Assembly: GCA_017518225.1 (NCBI GenBank) | Contig: JAFWVV010000030.1 | Location: 1 to 60,642, forward strand | DNA length: 60,642 nt | Origin: Oscillospiraceae bacterium | GTDB lineage: Bacteria > Bacillota > Clostridia > Oscillospirales > Oscillospiraceae | Reading direction: 5' to 3' | Shown: positions 25,935-41,158 of the stretch, piece by piece | Layout: the number at the start of each line of letters is the position of its first letter | Numbering within the stretch: the first letter of the stretch is position 1 | Notes under the pieces: generated by a model | What the model was told of the DNA's origin: nothing | Seen by the model: the letters and a program-made list of their open reading frames with translations, nothing else | The model's database searches: none | Position numbers and translations under genes: made by a program

Positions 25935-26579
25935 ATGAGCGAGAACCAGATCATGATCATCGGCATCGCCGGCGGCACCGGCAGCGGCAAGACCACCATT
26001 ACGCGCCGCCTGATCCAGAGCTTCGGCAGCGAGGTTTCCGTGATCCACCACGACAACTACTACAAAGAACACCACGACATGCCCTTTGAGGAGCGCGCCA
26101 AGCTCAATTACGACCACCCCAACGCCTTTGACACGGAGCTGCTGATCGAGGCGCTGCGCGAGCTCAAGCGGGGACACAGCATTACCTGTCCCGTCTACGA
26201 CTATGCCATCCACGACCGCACGGATAAGACCCTCGTTGTGCATCCCACCCGCGTCATCGTGGTCGAGGGCATTTTGATCTACGAGAGCAAAGAGCTGTGC
26301 GAGCAGATGGATATCAAGCTCTATGTGGACACCGACGCGGACGTGCGTATCCTGCGCCGCATCGTGCGCGACGTGCGCGACCGCGGGCGCAGCCTGGACA
26401 GCGTCATCAATCAGTATCTGAGCACCGTCAAGCCCATGCATGAGCAGTTCGTCGAGCCCAGCAAACGCCGGGCGGATATCATCATTCCCGAGGGCGGGCA
26501 CAACCGTGTGGCGCTGGAAATGGTGATGGAGCGCGTGCGCGCGCATCTCAACCGGACCAGGGAGGGCGCGCATGGCTAA
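25935..26579 (+). CDS. udk: Uridine kinase
   Basis: The 214-residue kinase shows P-loop GGTGSGKTT, substrate segment HHDNYYKEH, NYDHPNAFD, PVYDYAIHDR and the lid arginines RILRRIVRDVRDRGR. It phosphorylates uridine and cytidine to UMP and CMP. An AGGAGG site precedes the ATG. It overlaps tdk by 8 bases. Confidence 0.96.
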   Translation: MSENQIMIIGIAGGTGSGKTTITRRLIQSFGSEVSVIHHDNYYKEHHDMPFEERAKLNYDHPNAFDTELLIEALRELKRGHSITCPVYDYAIHDRTDKTLVVHPTRVIVVEGILIYESKELCEQMDIKLYVDTDADVRILRRIVRDVRDRGRSLDSVINQYLSTVKPMHEQFVEPSKRRADIIIPEGGHNRVALEMVMERVRAHLNRTREGAHG

Positions 26580-27147
26580 ACTCTATTTTAAATACGGCGC
26601 GATGGGCTCGTCCAAGTCCGCGCAGGCGCTCATTACGCAGTTTAACTATGAGGAGCTCGGCATGAGCGTTTGGCTGATCAAGCCCAGCGTCGACACCCGC
26701 GACGGCGCGGACGTTATCCGCAGCCGCATCGGGCTGGAGCGGCATGCCGAGGTCATCACTCCGGAGCAGGATATCCGCGAAGCCTATCGCCGCTCCGGCA
26801 AGCGCGATGTGATCATCGCCGACGAGGCACAGTTTTTTACTCCGGCTCAGATCGACCAGCTGCGCGAGCTTGTGGACGAGGAAGACCTGCCGGTGCTGTG
26901 CTTTGGCCTGCGCACCGACTTTCTGACGCAGTTTTTCCCCGGCTCCCGGCGGCTGATGGAGCTGGCCGACTCGATCACCGAGATCAAGACCGTCTGCGCC
27001 TGCGGACGCAAGGCCACGGTCAACGCCCGCATCGACGGCAGCGGGCGCATCGTCACCGAGGGCGAGCAGGTGCTGCTCGGCGGCAACGACAGCTATGTGG
27101 CGATGTGCCACCAGTGCTGGAAAAAGAAAATTCGCGAACAGCGATAA
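26572..27147 (+). CDS. tdk: Thymidine kinase
   Basis: The 191-residue type II thymidine kinase has phosphate loop GAMGSSKSAQ, the catalytic Glu in IIADEAQFF, and a zinc site from CACGRKA and CHQCW near the C-terminus. It overlaps udk. Its last 77 coding bases and the 21 bases beyond are duplicated at 33.4 kb, and the reading frame here is complete. Its natural terminator hairpin is only half present downstream of this copy. Confidence 0.95.
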   Translation: MAKLYFKYGAMGSSKSAQALITQFNYEELGMSVWLIKPSVDTRDGADVIRSRIGLERHAEVITPEQDIREAYRRSGKRDVIIADEAQFFTPAQIDQLRELVDEEDLPVLCFGLRTDFLTQFFPGSRRLMELADSITEIKTVCACGRKATVNARIDGSGRIVTEGEQVLLGGNDSYVAMCHQCWKKKIREQR

Positions 27148-27168
27148 AACCTGAAAGCGGCCCCGGCG
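27071..27168 (+). repeat. Direct repeat, left copy (tdk 3' end)
   Basis: These 98 bases match 33393-33490 with only two differences, both near the tdk stop codon (the last codon encodes Arg here and Gln in the right copy). The repeat covers the last 77 coding bases of tdk and the first arm of a following hairpin. Confidence 0.9.
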
Positions 27169-27209
27169 GCAATCTGGTGTGGCTAACACAGAAAGAAAGC
27201 GGTGATGTT

Positions 27210-27878
27210 GTGTTCTCAGTACTCGTTATGGAAGATGATAAAACTATAAACAAGCTTCTTTGCAGCATTATCAAAAAAAGCGGCTACGCAGTAGATTCTG
27301 CCGAGAATGGGATTGACGGGCTAAATATGGCGGTATCCAAAGACTACCATATTATACTTATGGATTTAATGCTCCCTATGAAAACCGGTGAGGAAGTGCT
27401 AAAGGAGCTGCGCAACGTCAAGGATACCCCCGTCATCGTTATCTCAGCAAAATCAGAGGTTTACAGCAGGATAGAATTATTAAAGATTGGTGCGGACGAT
27501 TATATCACAAAACCGTTTGACATCGATGAAGTTATGCTTCGCATACAAGCAGTTCTCCGCCGGACGGAAGCTCAGTCCCCTGAACAGCTTGTCTTTAAGG
27601 ATATACGCCTTGATACCGAAGCGAAGCGTGTATATGTCAAAGAAAGCGAAATCACCTGTACCGTTACGGAATATTTGATCTTGGAGCTGCTGTTGAAAAA
27701 TCCCAAAACGGTGTTTTCCAAGCGGAGGATTTATGAGAGCATTTCGGGCGATATGTATGTAAGTGACGACAATACCATGAATGTACATATCAGCAATCTC
27801 CGAAAGAAAATTGCCAAATTTACATCGGAGGAATACATCGAAACGGTATATGGAATCGGCTATCGCTTGGTAAATTAA
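27210..27878 (+). CDS. OmpR-type response regulator (cassette)
   Basis: The 222-residue regulator has receiver residues ED at 8-9, phospho-acceptor D52 in LMDLMLP, VISAKSE, GADDYITKPFD, and a winged-helix effector (TVTEYLILELLLKNPKTVFS ... MNVHISNLRKKI). I start it at GTG 27210 (MFSVLVMEDD) because relatives begin with this strand; an ATG at 27228 would cut into the receiver. Base composition is AT-richer than tdk. Ahead of the ABC genes and a kinase, it should control that transporter. Confidence 0.88.
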   Translation: MFSVLVMEDDKTINKLLCSIIKKSGYAVDSAENGIDGLNMAVSKDYHIILMDLMLPMKTGEEVLKELRNVKDTPVIVISAKSEVYSRIELLKIGADDYITKPFDIDEVMLRIQAVLRRTEAQSPEQLVFKDIRLDTEAKRVYVKESEITCTVTEYLILELLLKNPKTVFSKRRIYESISGDMYVSDDNTMNVHISNLRKKIAKFTSEEYIETVYGIGYRLVN

Positions 27879-27953
27879 GGTTTTCTTTAGATTTGCTGAA
27901 GAAAGATTGCGGAATTGTATGTCATTATAAATGCGAAAAGGAGGTTTGCTTAT

Positions 27954-28877
27954 ATGGAAAATGTTATCCTGCAAACGAATGGAATTACCGTAAAATACGG
28001 TAGCTTTTTCGCTCTTGACAATGTGAGCATACAATTAAGAGAAAAACACATCTACGGCTTTATCGGCGAAAATGGTGCGGGAAAGACCACGCTGATGAAG
28101 GTGTTGACAGGTTTACTCTACCCTACAAGCGGCGATTTCTCCTTGTTTGGTAAAACCGATCCTGCCGACATATTAAAGATGCGCCGTCGTATCGGAAGCA
28201 CTATAGAGGCTCCCGCGCTTTATCCAGAATACTCCGCATGGAGAAACCTTGAACTGCAACGCATTCTAATCGGAAATCCTGACAAGGGAATCTGTGATAA
28301 GTTGCTGAGTACGGTTGGTCTTAGCGATGTCAGAGATAAAAAGGTAAAAAAATTCTCTATGGGTATGAAACAGAGGCTCAGTATTGCAATGGCCTTAATC
28401 AACAAGCCGAAATTGCTGATCCTTGATGAACCCATCAATGGTCTTGATCCCAAAAACATATCAGAACTGCGTAAGTTGCTGAAAAGGCTGAACGAGGAAA
28501 ACGATGTAACTCTGTTCATATCCAGCCATATTTTGAGCGAACTGTATCTGCTTGCCACCGATTACTATATAATTCATAAGGGCAGGATTCTCGAATCGCT
28601 GACACACGAGGACTTGGACGAGAAATGTCGGCAGTATATAAGAATTAAGACAAGCGAATTACCGAAATGTATAACCGTCATTGAAAATGCGATTAATGAC
28701 GTTGAGTACAAGGTTGTTGATGAAGAAACAATGCATCTCTTCTCCTATGCCGAAAGGTCAGAGAGTTTAGCAAAGCTGCTTATGAACAATCAGATTGTTG
28801 TAAAAGAATTATCGGTTGCCGAGCAAAGCTTGGAAGAATACTTTCTTGCTGTTACGGGAGGTGGAAAGCATGCGTAA
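27954..28877 (+). CDS. ABC ATPase, bacitracin/lantibiotic-immunity type
   Basis: The 307-residue ATPase has Walker A GENGAGKTT, signature FSMGMKQR, Walker B LLILDEPINGLD and switch FISSHILSEL. The Q-loop IGSTIEAPALYPEYSA is typical of the BcrA/LanF subgroup that exports or expels peptide antibiotics. AAGGAGG precedes ATG 27954. It overlaps the permease gene by 8 bases. A peptide-antibiotic substrate is inferred from subfamily and context. Confidence 0.88.
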   Translation: MENVILQTNGITVKYGSFFALDNVSIQLREKHIYGFIGENGAGKTTLMKVLTGLLYPTSGDFSLFGKTDPADILKMRRRIGSTIEAPALYPEYSAWRNLELQRILIGNPDKGICDKLLSTVGLSDVRDKKVKKFSMGMKQRLSIAMALINKPKLLILDEPINGLDPKNISELRKLLKRLNEENDVTLFISSHILSELYLLATDYYIIHKGRILESLTHEDLDEKCRQYIRIKTSELPKCITVIENAINDVEYKVVDEETMHLFSYAERSESLAKLLMNNQIVVKELSVAEQSLEEYFLAVTGGGKHA

Positions 28878-29565
28878 TCAAATGATTATCGAGAGATATA
28901 AGGCTGTACGTTTTTATATCATTTACATTGCGGCTCTCGTCCTTGTGGTAGCGGGATTTCTTCATGGCTTGATAAAAATACCGAAAGATCTGAACACATC
29001 AGCGGTATTCTCTAATTTGGTGTGCGACACTTCCTTTATCTTCATCCTGTCTCTTGTAGCCGCATGGTTTGCTGGAAATGATTTCCTGAACCGAACAATC
29101 CACAATGAAATTAAGGCTGGTTATAGCAGGATTTCTGTAATAATTACACGAACAATTACAACCGTTTTTATGGGATTACTGCTGCACTTGGCATATATTG
29201 CGGCAAGCTTGCTCGGTTTTGTCATAAAAGCGGGATTTGACAGCAGCGTATTCACTGTTGTAAATCTTAGCTGGTTGCTGGTAGTGATGTTGCAGATTTG
29301 TGCCAATATTTGCATCGTTATGTTTATTGTGTTCGCCCTCAAAAAAGTTACTTCGGGAATTGCTGTAACCGTTATTTTTGCCATTGTATCCTGCAATATT
29401 CTTAGGAACTTTATCAGCGATAGCGTGTTTAGGCTGACTCCGTTTAGTCTTGCGCAGACAAGTGACAGCCAAACTCTTATTTTGTCCGCTGCCGTTGCGG
29501 CAGTAATGATTGCTGTTTCAATGTTGGCAACGCACCTTGTTTTTAGAAGAGCCGAAATCAAATAA
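28870..29565 (+). CDS. ABC-2 permease (cassette)
   Basis: The 231-residue protein starts MRNQMIIERYKAVRFYIIYI and has about six TM helices with short loops, as in BcrB/LanE/LanG-type permeases. It overlaps the ATPase gene, so translation is coupled. Only one permease follows this ATPase, unlike LanFEG, so it may act as a homodimer. Confidence 0.85.
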   Translation: MRNQMIIERYKAVRFYIIYIAALVLVVAGFLHGLIKIPKDLNTSAVFSNLVCDTSFIFILSLVAAWFAGNDFLNRTIHNEIKAGYSRISVIITRTITTVFMGLLLHLAYIAASLLGFVIKAGFDSSVFTVVNLSWLLVVMLQICANICIVMFIVFALKKVTSGIAVTVIFAIVSCNILRNFISDSVFRLTPFSLAQTSDSQTLILSAAVAAVMIAVSMLATHLVFRRAEIK

Positions 29566-29580
29566 GGAGATGATACAGCG

Positions 29581-30459
29581 GTGGAAATTATAATCATTAT
29601 CATTCTTTCTGCCGCTGTATGCGTATTTGCGGCAAAGCTTTTCAGATTAAAACAAAGGATATATTCTGTGTCAAAACAGCTCGATAACGATAATAACTCG
29701 CTTATTACGATACAGCTTGGCGACGACGAGCTGGAAACATTGGTGCAAAAGATTAACCTTATGATCGAGAATGACCATGAGGCGAAGGTCGAAATTAACA
29801 AGGAGCAAGCCGCACTGAAACAGGCGATTGCAGATATATCTCACGACATACGAACGCCGTTGACATCAATAGTTGGCTATCTTCAACTTGCACAAAGAGC
29901 ATCAGAAAATGAAGAGCAGCGGACGAACATAGATATTGCCCTTGAACGCGCAAGGTACTGTAGTATTCTCGTAAACGACTTCTTTGAGCTGTCAATCATT
30001 GATGCAAACGGCTGCGAGCCTGTGATGGAAAAAGTTGATGTGAATGATCTAATCTGTGAGCTGATCCTCGCTAATTACCCCAACTTTGAAGCCAAAGGCA
30101 TCACCCCCCGTTTTGAGGAGGCAGGGAAACCTGTGTATGCACAGGCGGACAGAAAAATGCTGACAAGGGTTCTGCAAAATCTGATTTCCAACGGAATCAA
30201 ATACAGCAATGGAGCGCTTGACTTTATTCTGACATCAGATGATGCAGTGCATATTTCTGTATCGAATTCCGTAGGCAATCAAGAGATTGATACGGAGCGA
30301 CTATTTGACAAGTTTTACCGGGCAAACCGGGCAAGGACAGCAGATGGAGCGGGAATTGGCCTTTATATATGCAAGCAGTTTGTTCAAGCCATGGGTGGAA
30401 GTATTTCTGCGAGCATTCATGATGGCAGATTGACAATATCCATTTCCATCAAGTCATGA
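29581..30459 (+). CDS. Short-input histidine kinase (cassette)
   Basis: The 292-residue kinase starts at GTG (MEIIIIIILSAAVCVFAAKL) behind AAGGAG. It has one N-terminal TM helix and no extracytoplasmic domain, then H-box ISHDIRTPLTSI with His88, N-box VLQNLISNGIKYS and G-box DGAGIGLYI. Kinases like this often sense through a neighbouring transporter or within the membrane. It pairs with the regulator at 27210. A diverged 118-base copy of its residues about 28-66 occurs at 33184-33301. Confidence 0.88.
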   Translation: MEIIIIIILSAAVCVFAAKLFRLKQRIYSVSKQLDNDNNSLITIQLGDDELETLVQKINLMIENDHEAKVEINKEQAALKQAIADISHDIRTPLTSIVGYLQLAQRASENEEQRTNIDIALERARYCSILVNDFFELSIIDANGCEPVMEKVDVNDLICELILANYPNFEAKGITPRFEEAGKPVYAQADRKMLTRVLQNLISNGIKYSNGALDFILTSDDAVHISVSNSVGNQEIDTERLFDKFYRANRARTADGAGIGLYICKQFVQAMGGSISASIHDGRLTISISIKS

Positions 30460-30522
30460 AGAAACTGTCAGAGGAATATGTTCCTTAAGGCCATGTTTTC
30501 AGCATCTTACCTGCCGAAAACT

Positions 30523-30597
30523 ACCACTTACCCCAAAAGTCCAGACAAAGTTAAAAGTACCCCTTATAATACAATTGCAGCAGGAAGTGAGGTGAAA
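30523..30597 (+). promoter_or_regulatory. Promoter region of first LytTR operon
   Basis: TATAAT at 30565-30570 lies 31 bases before the LytTR start. Upstream, CTTACCCC and AGTACCCC recur about 30 bases apart, around AAAGTTAAAAG. LytTR proteins bind paired direct repeats, so this is a candidate site for autoregulation. Confidence 0.45.
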
Positions 30598-30600
30598 TGT

Positions 30601-31038
30601 GTGAAAGTAGAAATTAAGCTGACAGAACACGAACATGATCCCTATGCCGTTATCTATGCAGGAGAGATAACGCCGGCGATCAGAAATGCGGTAATACTGC
30701 TCGAACAGGAGAGCCCTAATGTGATTTCCGTGGTGGACAATGAACGCATTATCGTTTTGCATCCTGAAGAAATTACTATGATCCGAGTGGAAAACGAGAA
30801 AACAGCCGTATATGCAAAGGCAAAGCGATATGAAAGCGGTAAAAGGCTATATGAGTTTGAGGAAATACTCGGAAACAGTTTTATGAAAATCTCCAAATCG
30901 ACAGTTGTGAACCTAAAACACATCGAATACGTCGAGCCGACATTGGGCGGTCTTATGCTTCTTGTTCTGAAAAACGGCTGTAAAGATCACATTTCACGAA
31001 AATATTGGCCTGCTTTCAAAAAGCATTTGGGATTATAG
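30601..31038 (+). CDS. LytTR-domain DNA-binding regulator (AT-rich copy)
   Basis: The 145-residue protein has an N-terminal ferredoxin-like half (VKVEIKLTEHEHDPYAVIYA) and a C-terminal LytTR domain (ITMIRVENEKTAVYAKAKRY ... FMKISKSTVVNLKHIEYVEP). It lacks a receiver domain. I start it at GTG 30601, 6 bases after GAGGTGA. It is followed at 12 bases by DUF3021, the standard pairing in Bacillota. In LytTR regulatory systems the membrane partner restrains the DNA-binding protein; that this applies to DUF3021 is inference. Confidence 0.88.
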   Translation: MKVEIKLTEHEHDPYAVIYAGEITPAIRNAVILLEQESPNVISVVDNERIIVLHPEEITMIRVENEKTAVYAKAKRYESGKRLYEFEEILGNSFMKISKSTVVNLKHIEYVEPTLGGLMLLVLKNGCKDHISRKYWPAFKKHLGL

Positions 31039-31050
31039 GAGGTACAATCC

Positions 31051-31488
31051 ATGAAAAATGTATTCAAAAAGATCTGTTCCGGAATCGGAATGGGCTGCTT
31101 TGCATTTGTCGCTATGCTTTTCGTCGCATCTGCTATCGCGGGAGACGCGAACACGTTCTTTACAACAAGAAACGGAGCAGAATGGTTACAACTTGCAGTC
31201 TGCTTTATAGCGATATCAATCGGCTTTTATGTTCCAACGCTGGTTTATGAAAATGAAAAAATGGCGATGTGGTTTCGAACGCTGATTCACATGTTAATCG
31301 GTACCGTCGTATATCTGACTACTGCCTATTTCGCCGGCTGGATGAAGGCTGGCTTGGGGGCTACAGTGGTATATATTTCTCTGGCATTGGTAGCCGCCGG
31401 AGCGTTTTGGTCGATCTTTATGAGCATTTCAAAGATTCAGGCGAAAAAGATCAATGAAAAAATCAAGGAGAAGCAGCAGAGCGAGTAA
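31051..31488 (+). CDS. DUF3021 membrane protein (AT-rich copy)
   Basis: The 145-residue protein MKNVFKKICSGIGMGCFAFV has four TM helices (residues about 10-30, 47-65, 75-95 and 103-123) and a charged C-terminal tail, the DUF3021 plan. AGGAGG precedes the ATG. Sitting between LytTR and ABC genes, it probably senses the membrane or the transporter and controls LytTR. Confidence 0.87.
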   Translation: MKNVFKKICSGIGMGCFAFVAMLFVASAIAGDANTFFTTRNGAEWLQLAVCFIAISIGFYVPTLVYENEKMAMWFRTLIHMLIGTVVYLTTAYFAGWMKAGLGATVVYISLALVAAGAFWSIFMSISKIQAKKINEKIKEKQQSE

Positions 31489-31527
31489 ATCTAAGCTACT
31501 TCTCGGAGGCGGGATAAGGAGGATTAT

Positions 31528-32448
31528 ATGATTAGAGTCGAAAACCTGTTCGTAAAATACGGCTCATTATGTGCCGTATCCGGCGTTTCTCTCGCCATCA
31601 AGGATGGTGAAGCGTTTGGGATAATTGGGCGTAACGGAGCCGGAAAAACAACGCTTATTGAAGCGATGGAAGGATTGCGGAAAAGGACAAGCGGAAAAAT
31701 CGATATAAATGGGATTGATCCATCAGATTCCAGGAAAAAAGAAGAATTATACCGTATGATTTCTGTTCAGCTGCAAAGCACAAATTATCCGGATAAAGCA
31801 AAGGTCGGTGACTTATGCAAGCTGTTCGGAGCGTTCTACAACAATACAATAGACTATCGTGAGCTGCTAAAGAAATTCGGCCTTCTTGAAAAGTTTAATA
31901 AGCCTGTCAGCAGCTTATCTGGAGGGCAAAAGCAGAAGTTGTCTATTCTGCTTGCACTTATATCTCGTCCTAAGATTGTTTTTTTAGATGAGCTAACAAC
32001 AGGGCTGGATGCAGATGCGCGGCACGAATTATGGAAATACTTAAAGGAATTAAAAAGTGATGGTGTTACAATCATCCTGGTTTCTCACTATATGGACGAT
32101 GTTGAAATGATTTGTGATCGCATTGGCGTGATGAGCAACGGTCAACTTATCCATGTCGGCACAAGAGATGAACTAACAAACGCATCGGGACTTGCCCGCC
32201 GCGTTACTTTTACTTGTAGTGCTGATATACTCACGTTGATAACTGACATGCCTGGAGTTGTTCGCGCCGAGTGTATTGGCGACCAATATACGGTTGTTGC
32301 CTGCGATGAAAACTTCCCAGAAAAGTGTGCTGATTATTTCGACAACAGGAATATCTTGTACAAAGATTTTGTGGTAAGTCGTCCAACATTGGAAGATGTT
32401 TTCCTTCGATTGATTAATGAAAATAACGGAGGTGATTTGAATGGGTAA
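31528..32448 (+). CDS. ABC ATPase of first LytTR operon
   Basis: The 306-residue ATPase has Walker A GRNGAGKTT, signature LSGGQKQK and Walker B IVFLDELTTGLD, where the usual DEP is DEL. The C-terminal 90 residues extend past the ATPase fold, as in DrrA-type exporters. AAGGAGG precedes the ATG; the permease gene starts 8 bases inside its end. Confidence 0.9.
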   Translation: MIRVENLFVKYGSLCAVSGVSLAIKDGEAFGIIGRNGAGKTTLIEAMEGLRKRTSGKIDINGIDPSDSRKKEELYRMISVQLQSTNYPDKAKVGDLCKLFGAFYNNTIDYRELLKKFGLLEKFNKPVSSLSGGQKQKLSILLALISRPKIVFLDELTTGLDADARHELWKYLKELKSDGVTIILVSHYMDDVEMICDRIGVMSNGQLIHVGTRDELTNASGLARRVTFTCSADILTLITDMPGVVRAECIGDQYTVVACDENFPEKCADYFDNRNILYKDFVVSRPTLEDVFLRLINENNGGDLNG

Positions 32449-33184
32449 AACACTATCTCTTTTTATGTTTGAACTTAAGTTGTTTTTCAAGAACATAACA
32501 AACCTCATATTTGTTTTGTTCTTTCCCAGTTCAATGATACTCCTTTTTGGCAGTGTTTTTGGGAACGAACCGAGTGAAATGTTTGGGGGATATGGAACAA
32601 TTGATGTATCTGTCCCTGCCTATATATGCATGATTGCTGCCGTGACCGGTCTTATGAGCCTGCCAATAACTCTTTGCACATATAGGCAGAATAAAGTGCT
32701 TAAGCGTTTGCGCGCTACAACACTAAGCCCCTTAAATATCATTGGAACACAGTTCGCCGTCAACTTCGCAATGACGGTAATAGGAATAGGGTTGCTCATA
32801 ATCATCGCCTTAGCCGTATTCCATTTTCAACTGATGGGCTCAGTAGTCGTTGTTGCGTTATTGAGTGCTTTAGTTATTTGCTGTGTTTTTAGTATTGGGC
32901 TGTTGATTGCAAGTGTTTTCAAAAACGCAAAAACAGCAACAGCCATTGCTAACATTATCTATTTTCCGATGATATTCCTTAGCGGCGCTACCATCCCTAT
33001 TGAACTTATGCCCGAAGCGGTACAAAAGGGTGCTAATATTCTGCCGCTGACGCATGCGGTGAATGTTCTAAAAAGTGCTTGGCTGAACAAGCCTTTCGCA
33101 GAATACTCTGTATCCTTCTTCATTCTCTTGGCTATCTTTGTTGTGTGCAGCCTACTATCCGTTATTTGTTTTAAGTGGGAATGA
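32441..33184 (+). CDS. ABC-2 permease of first LytTR operon
   Basis: The 247-residue protein MGKTLSLFMFELKLFFKNIT has six TM helices and the ABC-2 signature region (IIYFPMIFLSGATIPIELMP ... LPLTHAVNVL) of DrrB-like exporters. The stop codon abuts a fragment of a kinase gene with no intervening terminator. This suggests that a deletion fused the permease end to older DNA. Confidence 0.88.
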   Translation: MGKTLSLFMFELKLFFKNITNLIFVLFFPSSMILLFGSVFGNEPSEMFGGYGTIDVSVPAYICMIAAVTGLMSLPITLCTYRQNKVLKRLRATTLSPLNIIGTQFAVNFAMTVIGIGLLIIIALAVFHFQLMGSVVVVALLSALVICCVFSIGLLIASVFKNAKTATAIANIIYFPMIFLSGATIPIELMPEAVQKGANILPLTHAVNVLKSAWLNKPFAEYSVSFFILLAIFVVCSLLSVICFKWE

Positions 33185-33301
33185 TATTCTGTGTCAAAAC
33201 AGCTTGATAACGATAATAACTCGCTCATTACGATACAGCTTGGCGACGATGAATTGGAAACGGTGGTGAGAAAGATCAACCTTATGATCGAGAATGACCA
33301 T
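33184..33301 (+). pseudogene. Histidine kinase gene fragment
   Basis: These 118 bases match 29661-29778 of the cassette kinase with scattered differences and no gaps. They encode the region just after the TM helix and before the H-box. The number of differences means it derives from a related kinase or an old duplication. It begins at the last base of the permease stop codon. Confidence 0.85.
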
Positions 33302-33313
33302 AATGGAACTTGA

Positions 33314-33407
33314 TGGGAATCAGGCAATACGCTGCCGGACACGTGACTGCTGCTGCCGCTCTGCGACGCGCTGGGCACTACGGCGGACCGGCTGCTGCTC
33401 GGCGGCA
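33314..33407 (+). pseudogene. XRE regulator gene fragment
   Basis: These 94 bases match 36825-36918 of the intact XRE gene (part encoding WENGDTLPDTALLLPLCDVL) with about eight changes, including one that makes a stop codon (GACACGTGA). It ends in CTGCTGCTCGGCGGCA, a stretch shared by the XRE gene and tdk, where it switches to the tdk fragment. Confidence 0.85.
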
Positions 33408-33490
33408 ACGACAGCTATGTGGCGATGTGCCACCAGTGCTGGAAAAAGAGAATTCGCGAACAGCAATAAAACCTGAAAGCGGCCCCGGCG
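33393..33490 (+). repeat. Direct repeat, right copy (tdk 3' end)
   Basis: This is a 98-base copy of 27071-27168 with two differences, encoding LLGGNDSYVAMCHQCWKKRI followed by REQQ and stop. Downstream, CAG/CTG and GGCCGC arms complete a hairpin (about 33476-33523) whose second half is missing at the left copy. This right side therefore probably retains the original tdk downstream sequence. Confidence 0.85.
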
Positions 33491-33611
33491 CCTGTATATG
33501 CAGCCGTCGAGGCCGCTTGGTCGTATGCGGCGTACCGCTTGGTGCGTCAGCACTTGCGCGGGGCTTTCAAATCCGTTAAGCTGTGACCACATCAAAAAAT
33601 GGAGGAACAAT

Positions 33612-34190
33612 ATGGACACGACGAAGCGGAGAGAAGCTATGGCCGGGCTGCGTGCGCTCAAGCGCGAGGCAGGGGAGGAGCAGAAAAAGGGGCTGCCGTT
33701 TATGCTGGCGTCGGTCGTGCTATGGGGTGTGTTTTTGCTGGTACAATGGACGTGCAAGGAAATCACGATCCAGAATCTGTACACCTTTCTGTGCTCCTGT
33801 CTGTTGATGCCGCTCGCATTTTTGTTCTCCAAGCTTTTGAAAGCCGATATTTTCAAAAAAACCGACAACCCGATCAACAAGCTGGGTTTCCTGTGCACGA
33901 TGAACCAGATGCTTTATATTCTCATCGCGATGTGGGCCTTCAGCAAAAGCCCGGAGAACATGCTGATGATCTATGCGATGATTTTCGGCGCGCATCTGCT
34001 GCCCTTTGCATGGGTCTATGACTGCAAGCCCTATATAGCCGCGTCGATCGTCGATACGCTTGGCGCGCTTGTGACGGCGCAGCTTTGGGGCAATCGGGCA
34101 ACGGCACTGTTTTTTGTTATTGCGCAGGCGATGCTGTGCCTGGCTCTGCTGCGCGACCTTAGAAAGGGAAGGATGACGATTGAAGGTTGA
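33612..34190 (+). CDS. DUF7010 family membrane protein
   Basis: The 192-residue protein starts MDTTKRREAMAGLRALKREA, then GLPFMLASVVLWGVFLLVQW, and has about six TM helices; it fits the DUF7010 group of small membrane proteins of unknown function. GGAGG precedes ATG 33612. It overlaps the following LytTR gene by 11 bases, so the two are translationally coupled. This suggests DUF7010 belongs to the regulatory or transport unit. It is more GC-rich than the cassette to the left. Confidence 0.75.
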   Translation: MDTTKRREAMAGLRALKREAGEEQKKGLPFMLASVVLWGVFLLVQWTCKEITIQNLYTFLCSCLLMPLAFLFSKLLKADIFKKTDNPINKLGFLCTMNQMLYILIAMWAFSKSPENMLMIYAMIFGAHLLPFAWVYDCKPYIAASIVDTLGALVTAQLWGNRATALFFVIAQAMLCLALLRDLRKGRMTIEG

Positions 34191-34623
34191 CATCAAACAA
34201 GACCCGGGCGGTGAAGCGCTGTTCGTGGAGATCCATTGCCGGGAACTGACAAAGGAGGTGGCAAGGCTCGAGCGCTATATCCGGCGCTTTGGAGCCTTTG
34301 TTCCGGCGCGCGAAAACGGAGAGAGCGTTCAGGTGGACGCAGACAGCATCCTCTACATGGAATCCGTGGACAAAAAAACCTTTATCTACACCGACGATCG
34401 GGTTCTGTTGACGGAAAAACGGCTCTATGAGCTGGAGGAGATGCTGGATCGGGGAGATTTCTTTCGCTGCTCCAAATCGGTGATTTTGCATTTGAACAAG
34501 GTCGTTCGGCTTAAGCCGGAGCTTAACAGAAACATTCTCGCAACGCTTTCCAACGGCGAAAGGATCGTCGTGTCCAGAAGATATGCTGCGGCTCTCAAGG
34601 AGCTGCTGGGGATTGGAGGTTAA
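34180..34623 (+). CDS. LytTR-domain DNA-binding regulator (GC-rich copy)
   Basis: The 147-residue protein starts at TTG (MKVDIKQDPGGEALFVEIHC) behind GGAAGGA inside the DUF7010 end. The LytTR domain (ILYMESVDKKTFIYTDDRVL ... FFRCSKSVILHLNKVVRLKP) is a clear paralogue of the regulator at 30601 in size and layout but well diverged. It lacks a receiver domain. It is followed by a DUF3021-like gene after 3 bases. Confidence 0.87.
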   Translation: MKVDIKQDPGGEALFVEIHCRELTKEVARLERYIRRFGAFVPARENGESVQVDADSILYMESVDKKTFIYTDDRVLLTEKRLYELEEMLDRGDFFRCSKSVILHLNKVVRLKPELNRNILATLSNGERIVVSRRYAAALKELLGIGG

Positions 34624-34626
34624 GAC

Positions 34627-35091
34627 GTGGAGCAAGTGAAGACCATTTTGAAAAACATCCGGGACATGTTCGCGTTCAGCTTCGCCTGGCTGACGATGTG
34701 TGTGACCGCGCTCGCGCTGCTTGGCGGCGCGCAGAGCATCCGGGTGGATTTGCTGATGAAGCTGATGGCATTGTGCCTTTGGGGCGCGCTGTGCTTTGCG
34801 CTGTGCTTTCGCAGTGAGAAAATGCAGAAAAAGGGCTTTATGTTTTCTTTGAGTGTGTTTTATCTCTCGTTTCTCCCGGTGGAGATCCTGCTGTTTTATT
34901 TGATGGGCTTATTTCAGCACAAGGGGAGCCTTGCCGTTTGGTGCGGCTTTATTGCGATCATCAGCGCGTTGTATTTGATTTCTTTGGGGCTTGAACGGGT
35001 GTTTTTCAAAAGAAAGGCGGACTTATACACCGAAAAGCTGTGCCAATTCCAGAAAAGCTTCCGGGATCGGGAGGAAAAGGTGGAAAGATGA
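34627..35091 (+). CDS. DUF3021-like membrane protein (GC-rich copy)
   Basis: The 154-residue protein (GTG start, GGAGG upstream) begins MEQVKTILKNIRDMFAFSFA, has four TM helices and a charged C-terminal coil (KRKADLYTEKLCQFQKSFRD). It is positioned like DUF3021 between LytTR and the ABC ATPase. It overlaps the ATPase gene by 4 bases (ATGA). Confidence 0.8.
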   Translation: MEQVKTILKNIRDMFAFSFAWLTMCVTALALLGGAQSIRVDLLMKLMALCLWGALCFALCFRSEKMQKKGFMFSLSVFYLSFLPVEILLFYLMGLFQHKGSLAVWCGFIAIISALYLISLGLERVFFKRKADLYTEKLCQFQKSFRDREEKVER

Positions 35092-35807
35092 TTCGGGTGG
35101 AGAACATTACCAAAAGCTATGGCAAAAACACTGTGCTGGATCATATCAGCTTTGAAATTCCTGCCGGAGAGACGGTGGCGATTGTCGGGCCAAACGGAGC
35201 GGGAAAAACGACGCTGCTGGAGATTTTAATGACCTTGCGCAAGGCAGATTCCGGAACGATTCATATCATGGGGGAACGCCTTGACGAGCAGCGGTCGGTG
35301 GACAAAATTCGCAGTAAAATCGGCGTGATGCTGCAGGAGGGCGGCATGTATCAGTTTATCAAGCTGAAGGAAGCGCTGGAGCTGTTCGCGGCGTTTTATT
35401 CTGTGGATAAAGAAAAGATCGAGCGTTTGATTGCGTTTTTTGAGCTGCAGCCCTATTTGAATACAAAGTTCCACAAGCTGTCGGGCGGCTGGAAACAACG
35501 CTTTCTGCTGGCGATCGCTTTTCTGCACGATCCGGCTTTGATCTTTCTGGATGAGCCGACCACGGGACTTGACCCCAAGGCCACGCAGCTTGTGTGGAAA
35601 AAGCTCCGGGGCGGAGAGCAAAAGCGCAAAACGATCCTGGTTTCTACCCATTCCATGGAAGAGGTGGAGAAATATTGCGACCGGGTCATCGTACTCAAGA
35701 ACGGCAGGATCATAGAAAACGGCGCGCCGGCGGACATCAAGAAAAAACTGGATGTGGATTTCTTTTCCGATGCGTATTTTTGCCTGACAGAAGGAGGAAA
35801 CGAGTGA
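35088..35807 (+). CDS. ABC ATPase of second LytTR operon
   Basis: The 239-residue ATPase has Walker A GPNGAGKTT, signature LSGGWKQR, Walker B LIFLDEPTTGLD and switch LVSTHSMEEV. It is shorter than the paralogue at 31528, lacking most of the C-terminal extension. The ATG at 35088 overlaps the DUF3021 stop and the stop overlaps the permease GTG, so four genes are translationally coupled. Confidence 0.92.
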   Translation: MIRVENITKSYGKNTVLDHISFEIPAGETVAIVGPNGAGKTTLLEILMTLRKADSGTIHIMGERLDEQRSVDKIRSKIGVMLQEGGMYQFIKLKEALELFAAFYSVDKEKIERLIAFFELQPYLNTKFHKLSGGWKQRFLLAIAFLHDPALIFLDEPTTGLDPKATQLVWKKLRGGEQKRKTILVSTHSMEEVEKYCDRVIVLKNGRIIENGAPADIKKKLDVDFFSDAYFCLTEGGNE

Positions 35808-36550
35808 AACAATCCGTAAAAAGCATCGCAAAGCTGGTTCAATATGATCTGGTCATTTTTTTTCGAGAGCCCTTTTTCGCCCTGCCAACTTTATTGCTGC
35901 CCGGCTTCTTTTTCGTTGTCTATGCCAGCGCGTTTGGGCAAGCTCCGGCGGATAGAATCAGCTTCGGACGGTATATTCCTACGTATATGCTCCTCATCAG
36001 CTATCTGACGGTGTTCTTTCAAATCGGAACGCAGTATGTCACGGATAGGCAAAACGGCATTTTCAAACGCCTGTTGCTTTCACCGATCAGGCTGCTCCAT
36101 GTGGTGATCAGCTATTCAATCCGAGGTGTTTTGGTTTCGGTGCTGGGATTTTTTGAAATGACCGTGCTTGCCGGAGCCGTGCTGCGTATTCCCTTGAGCG
36201 AGAACATGCTGCGCGTCTTTTTCGTCTTCCTTTTGCTGGCGTCGGTTATGATGCTTTTGAGTATCAGCATCCATGGATTTATAAAAAACGCCAAAAATGT
36301 TATGCTGTTTAGCATCCTGTGTTTTCAGTATGTTTTTTTCTCGACCGGCATGATCATGCCGGTTGAGAAGATGCCGGCGGCGGTGCGCTTCTTCGTTTAT
36401 CTGAATCCGATTTATCACATGAACCAGGTGCTGATTTCCGCCTGGTATCAGACGCGGCAGTCTGCAGAGCACGTGCTGGCGCTGGCGGCATGGGTGATCC
36501 TGTGCTTGCTTTTTGTCCGTCTCCAAAAGGGCTTTGCCACGGATAAGTAA
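35804..36550 (+). CDS. ABC-2 permease of second LytTR operon
   Basis: The 248-residue protein starts at GTG 35804 (MKQSVKSIAKLVQYDLVIFF) behind AAGGAGG. It has six TM helices and the ABC-2 export region (STGMIMPVEKMPAAVRFFVY LNP). Size and layout match the permease at 32441. It closes the operon; a hairpin follows. Confidence 0.88.
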   Translation: MKQSVKSIAKLVQYDLVIFFREPFFALPTLLLPGFFFVVYASAFGQAPADRISFGRYIPTYMLLISYLTVFFQIGTQYVTDRQNGIFKRLLLSPIRLLHVVISYSIRGVLVSVLGFFEMTVLAGAVLRIPLSENMLRVFFVFLLLASVMMLLSISIHGFIKNAKNVMLFSILCFQYVFFSTGMIMPVEKMPAAVRFFVYLNPIYHMNQVLISAWYQTRQSAEHVLALAAWVILCLLFVRLQKGFATDK

Positions 36551-36564
36551 GGCCATAGGAATCC

Positions 36565-36594
36565 ACGCGGCGAGGAATGAAAGCCTCGCCGCGT
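36565..36594 (+). terminator. Terminator after second LytTR operon
   Basis: The 11-bp stem ACGCGGCGAGG / CCTCGCCGCGT is followed by AGCTTTG, 14 bases after the permease stop. The T-run is weak. Confidence 0.6.
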
Positions 36595-36713
36595 AGCTTT
36601 GACAGGGCGCTCAACTAAAAATAGAATTTTTTCAATTTTCCCGTTATTTACGAATGAGCGTTTCTGCCGTATGATAAAAGCGTCCGGGACAAATCATAAG
36701 GAGGAAATGGATC

Positions 36714-37241
36714 GTGGACGCTTTACAGATTGGACGCTATATTCAGAAAATGAGAAAATCGGCGGGCATGACGCAGAAGGAGCTGGCCGAGCGGCTGAAC
36801 GTATCCTTTCAGGCCGTGTCGAAGTGGGAAAACGGCGATACGCTGCCGGACACGGCGCTGCTGCTGCCGCTCTGCGACGTGCTGGGCACGACGGCGGACC
36901 GGCTGCTGCTCGGCGGCACGTTCGCCGCGCGCGACCGTCGGCTGATGCGCGTGGAGGATGTGGCGGAGGGCTTTCGCTGCATGGAGCGCATCGGACAGCT
37001 TTTCGGAGAAAACAGCACTTTTTTCACCGGTATGGTCGAGGGAATCAACGAAAATATGAACATCGACCTGCTGGGTTATCTGAAAGACCCCAAGACCCGC
37101 GAGGTGCTCTACGCCGAGGTGCTGATCCAGGGGATTCTCAAGGGGCGCAGCGTGGATATGGACGAAATCGAGGCGAGCTTTGAAAACAAAAAGATGGTCG
37201 AGACCATCCGGCGCTACGCCAACAAAGCAAAGGAAGAATAG
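36714..37241 (+). CDS. XRE family transcriptional regulator
   Basis: The 175-residue protein (GTG start, AAGGAGG upstream) opens with a helix-turn-helix, IGRYIQKMRKSAGMTQKELA ... VSFQAVSKWENGDTLPDTAL. It has a C-terminal helical domain with no recognised ligand motif (FFTGMVEGINENMNIDLLGY). Part of the gene (36825-36918) also occurs, mutated, in the scar at 33.3 kb, so this locus took part in the rearrangement. Its targets are unknown. Confidence 0.88.
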   Translation: MDALQIGRYIQKMRKSAGMTQKELAERLNVSFQAVSKWENGDTLPDTALLLPLCDVLGTTADRLLLGGTFAARDRRLMRVEDVAEGFRCMERIGQLFGENSTFFTGMVEGINENMNIDLLGYLKDPKTREVLYAEVLIQGILKGRSVDMDEIEASFENKKMVETIRRYANKAKEE

Positions 37242-37252
37242 CGTAAAAAAGC

Positions 37253-37276
37253 GGCGGACTGAACATTCAGTCCGCC
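37253..37276 (+). terminator. Hairpin after XRE gene
   Basis: An 11-bp perfect stem GGCGGACTGAA / TTCAGTCCGCC with a 2-base loop lies 12 bases after the XRE stop. There is no T-run, so terminator function is uncertain. The rest of 37277-37474 has no gene; it holds a TGTCGAA match (37406-37412), like a Spo0A box. Confidence 0.5.
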
Positions 37277-37474
37277 AAAGGGATTGTGTGGGATAAAGAT
37301 ATGAGCCGCGTCCTCCCGATGGGATTGAGAGGACAAATTGGATAAGCTGTGCGTTAAGCATAGCGCGTTTGTCTCGTTTTGTAAAGAGCGAGAAAAGACT
37401 TGTTTTGTCGAAGGTATATTTTTTTGAAAAATGGTCACAATAGTTCTGAAACCTTTATGAGAGGAGTCAGGAAC

Positions 37475-37687
37475 ATGATCATGGATCGTATCGCACTCGT
37501 CCTCGCCATTATCGGCGGGCTCAACTGGGGCAGCATCGGGCTGTTTCGCTTCGACCTCGTTGCGTGGCTCTTTGGCGGTCAGACCGCGACGGTCAGCCGT
37601 GTGATCTACACGCTGGTCGGTCTGGCGGCACTCTGGTGTGTGTCTCTGCTGTTTCGCAGCGACGCCATCACCGACGACGAGATTTAA
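37475..37687 (+). CDS. DUF378 family small membrane protein
   Basis: The 70-residue protein MIMDRIALVLAIIGGLNWGS IGLFRFDLV ... matches DUF378 (YuzA-like), with two TM helices and the conserved GGLNWG motif. GAGAGGAG precedes ATG 37475; an in-frame ATG two codons later is possible. Function is unknown across the family. Confidence 0.88.
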   Translation: MIMDRIALVLAIIGGLNWGSIGLFRFDLVAWLFGGQTATVSRVIYTLVGLAALWCVSLLFRSDAITDDEI

Positions 37688-37728
37688 GAAATAAGAGGCT
37701 GCTCGGTGCGGGCAGCCTCTTATTTCTT
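37686..37728. terminator. Bidirectional terminator
   Basis: A 17-bp stem AAGAAATAAGAGGCTGC / GCAGCCTCTTATTTCTT lies between the convergent DUF378 and DUF1294 genes and overlaps both stop regions. Confidence 0.85.
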
Positions 37729-38029
37729 ATCCCTTCCAAAAAAGCCAAAACAGCAGCGCAAGCTGTGCCAGCGCCAGCGCGGGAAAGCCCCAGACAAAGG
37801 TCCAGTGCCTGGTCTTGTGGCGAAAGACGCGCATGCCCAGCACGCCGCCGCAGGCGCCGCCGAGCAGCGCCAGCAGAAACAGGCGCTTTTCCGGCACGCG
37901 CCACAGCCCCTGTTTGGCCCGGTGTTTGTCGACGGCCATGGTGACGAATAAAATCAAGCTCAGCAAAAACAGCCAGCTCGGAAGCAGCAGACGGGGGTCG
38001 TGTTGAAAATACAGGATGATCTCTCTCAT
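37727..38029 (-). CDS. DUF1294 family membrane protein
   Basis: The 100-residue protein has three to four TM helices and the DUF1294 motifs: MAVDKHRAKQGLWRVPEKRL (D-K-x-x-A ... R-x-P-E) and LLGGACGGVLGMRVFRHKTR. The family is widespread and uncharacterised. The start overlaps the stop of the upstream metallophosphoesterase gene by 4 bases (TCAT region), so they are co-translated. Confidence 0.9.
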   Translation of the reverse strand: MREIILYFQHDPRLLLPSWLFLLSLILFVTMAVDKHRAKQGLWRVPEKRLFLLALLGGACGGVLGMRVFRHKTRHWTFVWGFPALALAQLALLFWLFWKG

Positions 38030-39120
38030 ATCAGCTCTCCAAAGTACCAGCCCGACACGCCCTTGTGCTTGACGAAATAGCCCCGGCTCGTCTCCTCCAC
38101 GACGCTCACCGCGTCGCCCGGCTCCAGCGGCAGAACGTAGTCCGTGCAGTCGTTACAGTCGGTGATCGGTTCGCCGGTAAACAGGTAGCGGGTCAGAATG
38201 TCCATCTCGTAGCCCGTGCGGACGTGGCGGCAGCGGGAAAACTCCTCGCCGCGCTGCAACACCTGCACCCGGCTGTCGCCCCAGCGGATGTAGTAGGAGC
38301 GCTCGCTCGCGGCCTGTGCGGTTTTGACTGTGCGCAGCGGGAAGGGATCATAGGCGACGAAGCCGAAATCCTCGCTGCCCTCATAGGGGATCAGCAGGGC
38401 GTTGAGTTGTCCGTCGTCCTTGAGCACACAGCCGCCGTCGATGGAGATGATGCGTGCGTCCCGGTCGACGATGGGGTTAGCGCAGACGGTGTCGCGCCCA
38501 TAGAGCATGACCGGCCAGTGCCCGGCGATCACCCACTTGTCAAAACGCCAGCCGCGACGCAAAAAGGCGTCGCAGTGCATAAGCTCTTCGGCGGTATGCG
38601 CGCGTAAAGGCTTGTCCGGGCGCATGCCGGCGTGGACGAAAACATAGTGCTCGGTCTCGATGGCGTGGGGGAGGCTGTCGAGAAAATCCCACTCCGCAGC
38701 GTAAAGCTGCCGCAGGCGCCGCTTGACCGCCGCAAAATCGTCCACCTCAAAGGGGTCGAGCGCGGCGGTGTTGCACATCTCCCATAAAAGTCCGCGTTTT
38801 TTTGTCAGGATATACTGGACGATCTGCTCGTCACTGTCCTCATGCTCATGAAAGACGTCGTTCCAGTGGTCGCAGTTGCCGAGCAGCAGATGGCAATTGC
38901 CCTGTCGCGCCAGCGCCATCAGATAGCGTAGCGTCGCAAGGCTCTCCGGCCCCTTTTCCAAAAAATCGCCGGCAATGACCAGCTCGTCGTCCGTGCCGAA
39001 AGCCGCCTTTTCCAGCAGCGCGCGCAGATAGGGGAGGTTGCCGTGAATGTCGGAGACGGCGAGAATACGCCGTCCGGGCGCGACGGAGAGTTTTTGGATG
39101 CGTGCCGCCTGCTCATACAT
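38026..39120 (-). CDS. Metallophosphoesterase with C-terminal SH3-like domain
   Basis: The 364-residue protein has the PPP-type phosphoesterase motifs AVSDIHGNLP, AGDFLEKGPES, GNCDHWN (Cys where GNHD is usual), VFVHAGMRP, AGHWPV and SIDGGC. They resemble diadenosine tetraphosphatase/PrpE-like Ser/Thr phosphatases. A C-terminal part (about 300-364, TDYVLPLEPGDAVSVVEETS ... KGVSGWYFGELI) looks like a bacterial SH3 fold. Its start overlaps the stop of the phosphatase-GNAT gene by 8 bases. The substrate is unknown. Confidence 0.82.
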   Translation of the reverse strand: MYEQAARIQKLSVAPGRRILAVSDIHGNLPYLRALLEKAAFGTDDELVIAGDFLEKGPESLATLRYLMALARQGNCHLLLGNCDHWNDVFHEHEDSDEQIVQYILTKKRGLLWEMCNTAALDPFEVDDFAAVKRRLRQLYAAEWDFLDSLPHAIETEHYVFVHAGMRPDKPLRAHTAEELMHCDAFLRRGWRFDKWVIAGHWPVMLYGRDTVCANPIVDRDARIISIDGGCVLKDDGQLNALLIPYEGSEDFGFVAYDPFPLRTVKTAQAASERSYYIRWGDSRVQVLQRGEEFSRCRHVRTGYEMDILTRYLFTGEPITDCNDCTDYVLPLEPGDAVSVVEETSRGYFVKHKGVSGWYFGELI

Positions 39121-40240
39121 AGCCCGGCCCTCCGATCCGCTTTTCCATCAAATACAGCCTGCCGCGGCTGCCCGGCTCGGCGCCGATGGCCTGAAAGCCC
39201 CAGCGCCGATAAAAAGCGCGTGCAGGCAGATTGTCCTCGGCGACGGTGAGGCGCAGCGCGCACCGGCCAAGCGCGCGGTAGCGCATGATCGCGCGCCCCA
39301 AAAGCTGAACGCCGATGCCGCGGTTGCGATAGTCCTCCCGCAGATACAAGAGGCTGATCCAGCCCCAAGCCTCGTCTGCGCCGCGCCGGGTGTCCAAATC
39401 CACAAGCCCCACGGCCTCGCCGTCCGCCCAAAGGCGCAGCACCGCGTTTTCATCGGCGCGGTGGTGCGCGTCGGCGGCGCGCAGATAGCTGTCCGCTGAA
39501 AACCCGGCGAGACTGCCGTGGGCGGCGCGCCAGGCGTCAGCATAACAGGAGATGTAAAAATCCGCTTCGCGCAGCGGGTCGATCGCCTCGGCGCGCAGGT
39601 CGGGCGCAGCGTCCCAGTCCGGCGCGTCTGCGGCGGGCAGGTGCGCGCAGTCGCCGAGACAGACGGGGGTGAAGCCGCCGTTTTGGTACGCTACCAACGA
39701 CACGGAGGTGTTGCCGCCGAGCGGCAGCCGGGCGGGATCGCCCGCGCCGATGCACAGCATTTTTGCCAGCAGACAGCGGATCGTGACGCCGTGGCTGACG
39801 ATGGCGACGGACTGCCCCTCGTGTGCGCGTAAAATCTCCTCCAGCGCCGCCCAGGCGCGCGCGGTCACGTCCGCGTAGCTCTCCGCGCCCGCCGGCTGCC
39901 AGCCGTCTTCGCGCTGCAGAAAACGCCGGATCGCCTCCGGCTGCTCATGACAAAGGTCGCCGAAGAAGCGCCCTTCCCAGACGCCGACGTTGATCTCCCG
40001 CAGCCGCGTATCCAGTTGCAGCGGCAGCGGGTGGGCGTCGAGCAGCGCCTCAGCGGTCATTTTTGCGCGGCAGAGGTCGCTGCTATAAATGGCGTCGAGC
40101 GGGATCAAGGCGAAGCGCTGCGCCAAATGCTGCGCCTGCCGCAGCCCAAGCGCCGTCGGCTCGCCGTCCCAGTCGCCTTGCATCAGCCGGAATAAATTGC
40201 CTTCCGCCTGTATGTGACGGATCAAATAAAGTTTCGTCAT
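39113..40240 (-). CDS. Histidine phosphatase-GNAT acetyltransferase fusion
   Basis: The 375-residue protein joins two domains. Residues 1-200 are a histidine phosphatase/phosphoglycerate-mutase fold: LIRHIQAEGN (the usual RHG is RHI here), SSDLCRAKMTAEAL, E in REINVGVWEG, and the second His in IVSHGVTIRC. Residues about 235-375 are a GNAT acetyltransferase: AVGLVDLDTRR, YLREDYRNRGIGVQLLGRA (acetyl-CoA loop) and ARAFYRRWGFQAIG. I recall similar fusions in Clostridia. The start at 40240 is set by the MTKLYLIRH beginning; the ribosome site is weak. Confidence 0.87.
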   Translation of the reverse strand: MTKLYLIRHIQAEGNLFRLMQGDWDGEPTALGLRQAQHLAQRFALIPLDAIYSSDLCRAKMTAEALLDAHPLPLQLDTRLREINVGVWEGRFFGDLCHEQPEAIRRFLQREDGWQPAGAESYADVTARAWAALEEILRAHEGQSVAIVSHGVTIRCLLAKMLCIGAGDPARLPLGGNTSVSLVAYQNGGFTPVCLGDCAHLPAADAPDWDAAPDLRAEAIDPLREADFYISCYADAWRAAHGSLAGFSADSYLRAADAHHRADENAVLRLWADGEAVGLVDLDTRRGADEAWGWISLLYLREDYRNRGIGVQLLGRAIMRYRALGRCALRLTVAEDNLPARAFYRRWGFQAIGAEPGSRGRLYLMEKRIGGPGYV

Positions 40241-40278
40241 AAATCGCACCCAAATCTTGACCGAATCAACAGAATGAA

Positions 40279-40300
40279 GTATAATAACTAAAGTTATTAT
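40279..40300. promoter_or_regulatory. Palindrome forming TATAAT on both strands
   Basis: TATAATAACT and its complement AGTTATTATA are separated by two bases between divergent genes. Each strand reads TATAAT, so it can be the -10 of both genes, or a repressor site. Confidence 0.5.
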
Positions 40301-40348
40301 AGCTTGCCCGCGCAATTTAGACAAGTCTAAAAAACGGGAGGGAACGAC

Positions 40349-40990
40349 ATGCCGCCAGAAGCGATCAACAGAAGAAAAGTGCGTGCCGCGGCGCTTGTCG
40401 CCGGCGACGGACAGATGCTGCAGGCGATTTTGGATTCCATGTATTTTAAGGAACTGCCAAACTTTGAGATGGCGGCGGTGATTTCGCCGGACAAGAGCGC
40501 CTATGCGATGACGCGCGCGCTGAACGCGGGCGTTCCGGCCTACGTCGTTGATCCGGAGCTGTTTCCCACGATGACCAGCCATAGCATGGCCGTCGCCAAC
40601 AAGCTGCGGGATATGGACATTGAGCTCGTGATCCTTGCCGGCTATGATCTGGCGCTTGGCGTGATCCCGTATCAGTTCAAAAACGCGATCCTCGGCATCT
40701 ACCCCGCGCTCTATCCCGCCTTTGAGGAGGTTGCGGGCGATATCCAGCGCGCCGTGCTCGAGCGCGGCGTCAAGCTCACCGGCGCGACGGCCTACTTTGC
40801 TGACAGCGACGGACGCGTCGGCGGCATTATCCTGCAAAAGGCGGTGGAGGTGTTGCCGGACGATGATCCCGAGTCGCTGCGCCGCCGGGTGATGGAGGAG
40901 GCGGAATGGAAGCTTTTGAGCCAGGCCATCGCCCTCTACTGTGCCGGAAAGCTGAAGATCCACGGCAAGCGTGTGATCGTCGAGCCGTAA
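40349..40990 (+). CDS. PurN-like formyltransferase-fold protein, probably not catalytic
   Basis: The 213-residue protein follows the glycinamide ribonucleotide transformylase fold: AALVAGDGQMLQAIL, IELVILAGYDLALG, and GATAYFADSDGRVGGIILQK. The catalytic loop of PurN, normally NIHPSLLPAF, is GIYPALYPAF here, so both the catalytic Asn and His are replaced (Gly, Tyr). The Asp-bearing loop is also altered. This argues against formyl transfer and for a paralogue with another role. GGGAGG precedes the ATG. No pur genes are adjacent. Confidence 0.8.
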   Translation: MPPEAINRRKVRAAALVAGDGQMLQAILDSMYFKELPNFEMAAVISPDKSAYAMTRALNAGVPAYVVDPELFPTMTSHSMAVANKLRDMDIELVILAGYDLALGVIPYQFKNAILGIYPALYPAFEEVAGDIQRAVLERGVKLTGATAYFADSDGRVGGIILQKAVEVLPDDDPESLRRRVMEEAEWKLLSQAIALYCAGKLKIHGKRVIVEP

Positions 40991-41011
40991 CAGCACGCAA
41001 GAACCAGAAAA

Positions 41012-41151
41012 GGGCGTGTTGCAAAATTAATAATTTCAAAAAATACTTGTCGTAAAAGTTACTGGGAGCCACAGATTTTGTGACTCCCAGTAACTTTTAT
41101 ACAAAATATCTTTTGCGATTTCGGCTAAAAACCTTATTTTGCAACACGCCC
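41012..41151. repeat. 140-bp nested inverted-repeat element
   Basis: The outer ends are a perfect 16-bp inverted repeat, GGGCGTGTTGCAAAAT (41012-41027) and its complement (41136-41151). Inside is a second long hairpin, AAAAGTTACTGGGAG... (41054-41073) with 41079-41099, one mismatch. It encodes nothing and is AT-rich against its surroundings. It may be a MITE-type element or serve as the bidirectional terminator of the convergent genes; no clear target duplication is seen. Confidence 0.7.
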
Positions 41152-41158
41152 CCTTACA

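Follow-up and report, generated by a model that had tools for sequence, protein, structure and literature searches.

We found that the 3' end of the thymidine kinase gene (tdk) recurs beyond an eight-gene cassette in the window, i.e., the whole 60,642-nucleotide stretch of Oscillospiraceae bacterium DNA that was analyzed (GCA_017518225.1, contig JAFWVV010000030.1), and that this second tail is joined to a fragment of an HTH regulator gene at a 15-base word common to both host genes. The explanation that we favor, with a probability of roughly 0.55, is that two versions of the tdk-HTH interval with different exporter sets underwent unequal crossover. Short-homology recombination between the HTH gene and tdk would account for the right joint with no recombinase required. 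The features concerned are listed in Table 1.

TABLE 1 Features of the tdk-HTH interval in window positions
Feature	Positions	Strand	Remarks
tdk, thymidine kinase, intact; 3' end forms the left repeat	26572..27147	+	Pfam TK; 88-89% protein identity in nearest relatives
Left copy of 98-base repeat (77 bases of tdk with stop, 21 after)	27071..27168	+	
22 bases at left junction	27169..27190	.	Similarity to L092 operon starts at 27191
OmpR-type response regulator	27210..27878	+	Response_reg, Trans_reg_C; GTG start picked by comparison with L092 (family scan took 27228-27875)
ABC transporter ATPase	27954..28877	+	Best NCBIfam model is a lantibiotic protection subunit, under cut-off
Permease-like membrane protein	28870..29565	+	Named by position; homologues in L091 and L092
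Histidine kinase	29581..30459	+	HisKA, HATPase_c
LytTR DNA-binding regulator without receiver domain	30601..31038	+	PF04397 alone
DUF3021 protein	31051..31488	+	PF11457
ABC transporter ATPase	31528..32448	+	Pfam
ABC-2 type permease (permease 2)	32441..33184	+	PF01061, PF12698
118-base histidine kinase gene fragment	33184..33301	+	108/118 identical to 29661-29778
94-base HTH gene fragment	33314..33407	+	85/94 identical to 36825-36918
15-base word TGCTGCTCGGCGGCA	33393..33407	+	Common to tdk (27071) and HTH gene (36904); join point
Right copy, 98-base tdk tail	33393..33490	+	
Hairpin, complete only at right copy	33477..33518	+	Fold of 33464-33545
Second non-syntenic block: DUF7010, LytTR, protein without Pfam match, ABC ATPase, ABC-2 permease	33612..36550	+	
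Intact HTH regulator gene	36714..37241	+	HTH_3; 68-75% protein identity in G033, G006, and G005

Tdk tail and junction patch

The two copies of the direct repeat, each consisting of 77 coding bases of tdk including the stop codon plus 21 bases, lie 6.3 kb apart and agree at 96 of 98 positions. The alignment confirms the recurrence of the tdk 3' end with two mismatches, as the sequence-only reading had described. Both mismatches (codons AAA/AGA and CGA/CAA) are non-synonymous, the longest exact run is 57 bases (27071-27127), and the own-genome match of the repeat (E value of 1.9e-42) excludes chance.

Direct repeats of at least 60 bases fall into five families in the window. A single repetitive gene near 54 kb accounts for two of them, and the remaining three converge on a patch at 33184-33490, in which the end of permease 2 is followed by the kinase piece, 12 bases, the HTH piece, and the tdk tail. 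The sequence-only reading had mentioned neither the kinase piece nor the HTH piece, nor the block to the right of the repeat. The HTH piece lies on the HTH gene's own strand; its match ends with TGCTGCTCGGCGGCA, with which the tdk match starts, and the sequence is that of the HTH gene upstream of the word and that of tdk downstream. Because the HTH fragment and the tdk tail overlap in the word, 83 bases of the repeat belong to tdk alone. No other exact match on the same strand between intact tdk and the HTH gene is as long as this word, the next longest being 12 bases. Words of this type are common in this GC-rich genome: 14 of the 15 bases lie in a 16-base stretch that recurs exactly at four other places, which counts against our best explanation.

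The two gene fragments differ from their sources in different ways. In the kinase fragment, 10 changes in 9 codons separate it from the cassette kinase, and 7 of the 9 are synonymous; it differs at 10 of 118 positions from the cassette kinase and likewise at 10 of 118 from the kinase of the goat-rumen record L092, these two kinases differing from each other by 17. This suggests that the fragment would be a piece of a diverged working allele and not the product of decay of the cassette's own kinase. We dropped the reading of a copy of that kinase because most of the changed codons are synonymous and the fragment is equally near to L092. The HTH fragment carries its 9 changes in 94 bases in 5 codons, of which one is synonymous and one has become a stop, and it looks more like the result of decay or error-prone copying than of allelic divergence, so that a purely allelic origin of this piece is disfavored. 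The difference between the HTH pair (9/94) and the tdk tails (2/98) gave a Fisher P value of 0.03 in a comparison picked after seeing the data.

Cassette genes and composition

The eight genes between the repeats form two modules, with domains assigned by Pfam: module 1 has the order response regulator, ABC ATPase, permease-like protein, and histidine kinase, and module 2 the order LytTR regulator, DUF3021 protein, ABC ATPase, and ABC-2 permease. The permease-like protein of module 1 had no match in Pfam or NCBIfam. No recombinase was found among the eight genes by Pfam, the first permease being the one without a Pfam match, and the earlier statement that none is encoded holds within that scope.

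The cassette genes have a GC content of 0.41 to 0.44 and a GC3 of 0.41 to 0.52, whereas the GC3 of 22 native window genes, which we selected as the native pool, is 0.72 to 0.91. Codon usage of the cassette genes correlates with that pool at 0.14 to 0.52, compared with 0.74 to 0.97 for each native gene against the others. The proposal of a block of different base composition is thus supported, and codon usage along the interval is non-uniform. We take the eight-gene cassette to be horizontally acquired DNA that, to judge by the protein families, probably encodes two independent regulated ABC exporters. The foreign block, the intact tdk end, and the displaced hairpin also agree with the earlier view that the block parted tdk from its downstream region while the gene end was kept.

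Lantibiotic-protection systems are of a kind in which a two-component system is linked to an ABC exporter. Module 1 resembles them in having regulator, ATPase, permease, and kinase in one operon and in the best match of its ATPase (TIGR03740), but the score of 213.9 is below the NCBIfam cut-off of 309.75. As for module 2, the accessible text on LytTR Regulatory Systems (PMC6193735) describes a LytTR regulator gene upstream of a gene for a DUF3021 or DUF2154 protein, with autoregulation through direct repeats. The likeness of module 2 to these systems is one of gene order, with the LytTR gene upstream of the DUF3021 gene (30601-31488) and ABC genes linked to them.

Hairpin and possible read-through

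Folding of both copies bore out the claim that the hairpin is complete only beyond the right copy: the right copy gave -37.5 kcal/mol (z score of -2.91) and the left copy -19.3 kcal/mol (z score of 0.05). The hairpin has no U-tract, and the label of terminator is uncertain for that reason. The first exporter operon begins 62 bases past the tdk stop codon, behind the hairpin that is cut at the left copy, which makes read-through plausible; this operon may be read from the udk-tdk promoter. A promoter scan was uninformative, with 15 hits and no excess over the 16.1 in shuffles, and it found none in the L092 operon either. A promoter-like site was seen at 30542-30570, before the LytTR gene (30601-31038). 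Because the hairpin lacks a U-tract and the promoter hits are not above those of shuffles, read-through is something that we infer from the arrangement.

Second block and wider interval

The second block (33491 to about 36590) takes an intermediate position in GC (0.49 to 0.53), GC3 (0.63 to 0.71), and codon correlation (0.60 to 0.79), and the HTH gene next to it has native codon usage (correlation of 0.92). In 36 same-genus genomes, no match to the region from 33470 to 36590 exceeded 94 bases, and longer matches were found for the HTH gene only (G005, G006, and G033) and from 37242 on. Thus, the non-syntenic stretch runs from about 27148 to 37241 (10.1 kb), in which only the HTH gene at the right end is recognizable in relatives. 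The genes at 33612-36550, at about 50% GC, are perhaps a separate, older acquisition. Besides, the region 37242-43965 (DUF378 gene to TrkA) has the opposite orientation in G019, where it was read on a single contig (L094), and in G023, where it was read on two (L095 and L096), and the 10-kb non-syntenic block therefore sits at an inversion breakpoint.

Comparison with relatives

A tdk match was present in 33 of the 36 same-genus genomes (partial in G014 and at 54% identity in G009), and none of the 33 had a second tdk tail; the second tdk match of G011 covers residues 1 to 20 at a contig edge. No empty-site relative keeping both repeats was thus encountered. For the cassette itself, the 36 genomes yielded nothing beyond short matches to domains, none of them above 102 bases. 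Since at most the five best first-look candidates were scored per genome and many genomes are incomplete, absence here means that a sequence was not found. Different DNA follows tdk in all 29 relatives that were read beyond this gene, none of which has a true empty site.

When the first 900 bases past tdk at these 29 loci (L002-L030) were clustered as DNA by single linkage, 13 groups resulted, six of them single; 13 is an upper count because diverged orthologues may split. An unrelated ABC ATPase gene (24 to 31% identity) follows tdk in 5 of the 29 loci, reversed in two of them. In G019, tdk is followed by a chloramphenicol-acetyltransferase-like gene (identified by reading) and then by TrkA, and G023 agrees on two contigs.

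Relatives of module 1 were found in a goat-rumen Clostridia record (L092; 80% identical over 27191-30457) and a roe-deer Lachnospiraceae record (L091; 68%). In both, module 1 is a complete operon at another place, and neither stretch contains the second module or tdk. The same 80% match to module 1 was obtained in G676, a genome of the same order. For module 2, a donor search at an E value of 1e-20 gave at best 70% identity over about 540 bases in a class sample of 391 genomes (G438) and 66% in an order sample of 295 genomes (G581), both samples being parts of larger groups and including the window's own genome. Permease 2 had matches of 26 to 30% in two of seven chosen genomes. By reading of the open reading frame lists of G005, G006, and G033, the neighbors of the HTH gene do not resemble exporter modules.

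Plasmid and phage sources were considered and rejected. Each piece matched in seven plasmid records made up just 1 to 2% of the query. Of seven phage records, four match the tdk part only, and the best, an unannotated faecal record, is 68% identical over 10% of the query (LytTR-DUF3021). In viral contigs, a pattern scan found no relative of permease 2 or the kinase, and three exact window words had 0 matches each.

Origin of the arrangement

We infer two versions of the tdk-HTH interval, one with the AT-rich cassette and the other with the 33491-36590 block, and an order of events as follows. The HTH gene of one version would have recombined with tdk of the other at the 15-base word held by both in the same orientation. 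As observed, this would place the two exporter sets one behind the other and leave a shortened copy of the HTH gene and an additional tdk tail, with tdk itself intact and the hairpin cut at the left copy. In favor of this reading are the convergence of three repeat families on the patch, the allele-like changes in the kinase piece, the shortness of all matches to either block in the 36 same-genus genomes, and the occurrence of module 1 as an operon elsewhere. The earlier suggestion that the mechanism may be homology driven is thus the best fit, as the HTH piece is joined to the tdk tail at the shared word. The kinase fragment falls outside what the HTH-tdk join explains and is a point against the crossover. 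No strain was seen that carries just one of the two versions.

The kinase fragment is one of three short pieces (118, 94, and 98 bases) that stand in a row within 33184-33490, as they would after a single replication-based event in which the template changed several times, from the end of tdk to cassette DNA, to a kinase allele, to the HTH gene, and back to tdk at the word. Such an event would also agree with the short exact homology at the last switch and with two whole-codon changes within the HTH piece. However, the kinase piece resembles a diverged allele and not a copy of the local kinase, and no microhomology was demonstrated at the other joins, where donor sequence is missing. We consider template switching unlikely.

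A plain in-lineage tandem duplication fails because the two units differ in content; it would leave 33491-36590 twice, and this block is present once. Somewhat more doubtful than template switching is a duplication from the tdk end to the HTH gene, bounded by the two 15-base words, after which the cassette would have replaced the interior of the first copy. Both words (27071 in tdk and 36904 in the HTH gene) are on the plus strand, as direct repeats at the unit ends, and the order of downstream gene, word, and upstream gene at 33314-33490 is the novel joint that such a duplication would leave. Moreover, short GC-rich duplication joints are already published: the accessible part of PMC11111574, which cites Anderson and Roth 1978, describes bacterial tandem duplications of the short-homology (illegitimate) type and the capture of promoters by acquired genes. 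The present case is like those duplications in its novel joint at a short GC-rich direct repeat and in acquired genes that would lie behind a host promoter, but unlike them in that the two units differ in content. The second event would, however, have to delete the first copy of the 3-kb block almost completely, and the two copy pairs are unequally diverged. The unequal crossover needs one event, whereas duplication and later replacement need two.

Homology-facilitated illegitimate recombination, as described in the accessible text of PMC3240628, depends on homology at one end of linear DNA. The present case is similar in that foreign DNA is joined to host DNA without a recombinase, but differs in that no such homologous end is shown here.

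It is very improbable that the cassette is a decayed site-specific element that integrated in the tdk 3' end and lost its recombinase. The foreign composition, the variable position after tdk across the genus, and the exact restoration of the tdk end, with the gene intact and its second tail displaced by 6.3 kb, are what such an element would give. Nevertheless, no recombinase is among the eight genes, the second tail occurs in 0 of 33 same-genus genomes with a tdk match, and module 1 relatives are located elsewhere without a tdk tail. Furthermore, the left edge of the right repeat is not that of an att core: it is a word shared with, and lying beside, a fragment of another host gene. As this edge is set by the tdk/HTH word and the HTH piece is fused there, the proposed likeness to elements that use a gene 3' end is unsupported. 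Short-homology recombination between two host genes can thus mimic the scar of a gene-end attachment site, a trap for calling elements from flanking repeats alone. Equally improbable is a chimera of assembly or library. The draft state of the genome (84 contigs, 86% complete) and the joins being seen in one strain only speak for it, but the longest exact run of 57 bases in the tdk repeat and the HTH-tdk word of 15 bases are short for a k-mer misjoin and the copies differ at real positions.

With regard to unequal crossover, we raise one broader idea, of which we are doubtful: in this Clostridia genus, the interval from tdk to the next native gene might be a place where regulated exporter sets are swapped and, by unequal crossovers at short GC-rich codon strings between strains with different sets, stacked in a row without a recombinase. 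If true, such bacteria would have a recombinase-free route to gather exporter sets behind a housekeeping operon. The parts and event types are all of known kinds, and nothing categorically new was found.

Elsewhere in the window, the gene at 53721-55352 encodes a threonine-proline-alanine repeat protein and has a 300-base internal duplication (78% identical). The region 566-2428, on the minus strand, encodes a 620-residue protein that by reading is AAA ATPase-like with a nuclease-like C terminus, and the GC content around it is about 0.50 to 0.55, compared with about 0.6 over most of the window.
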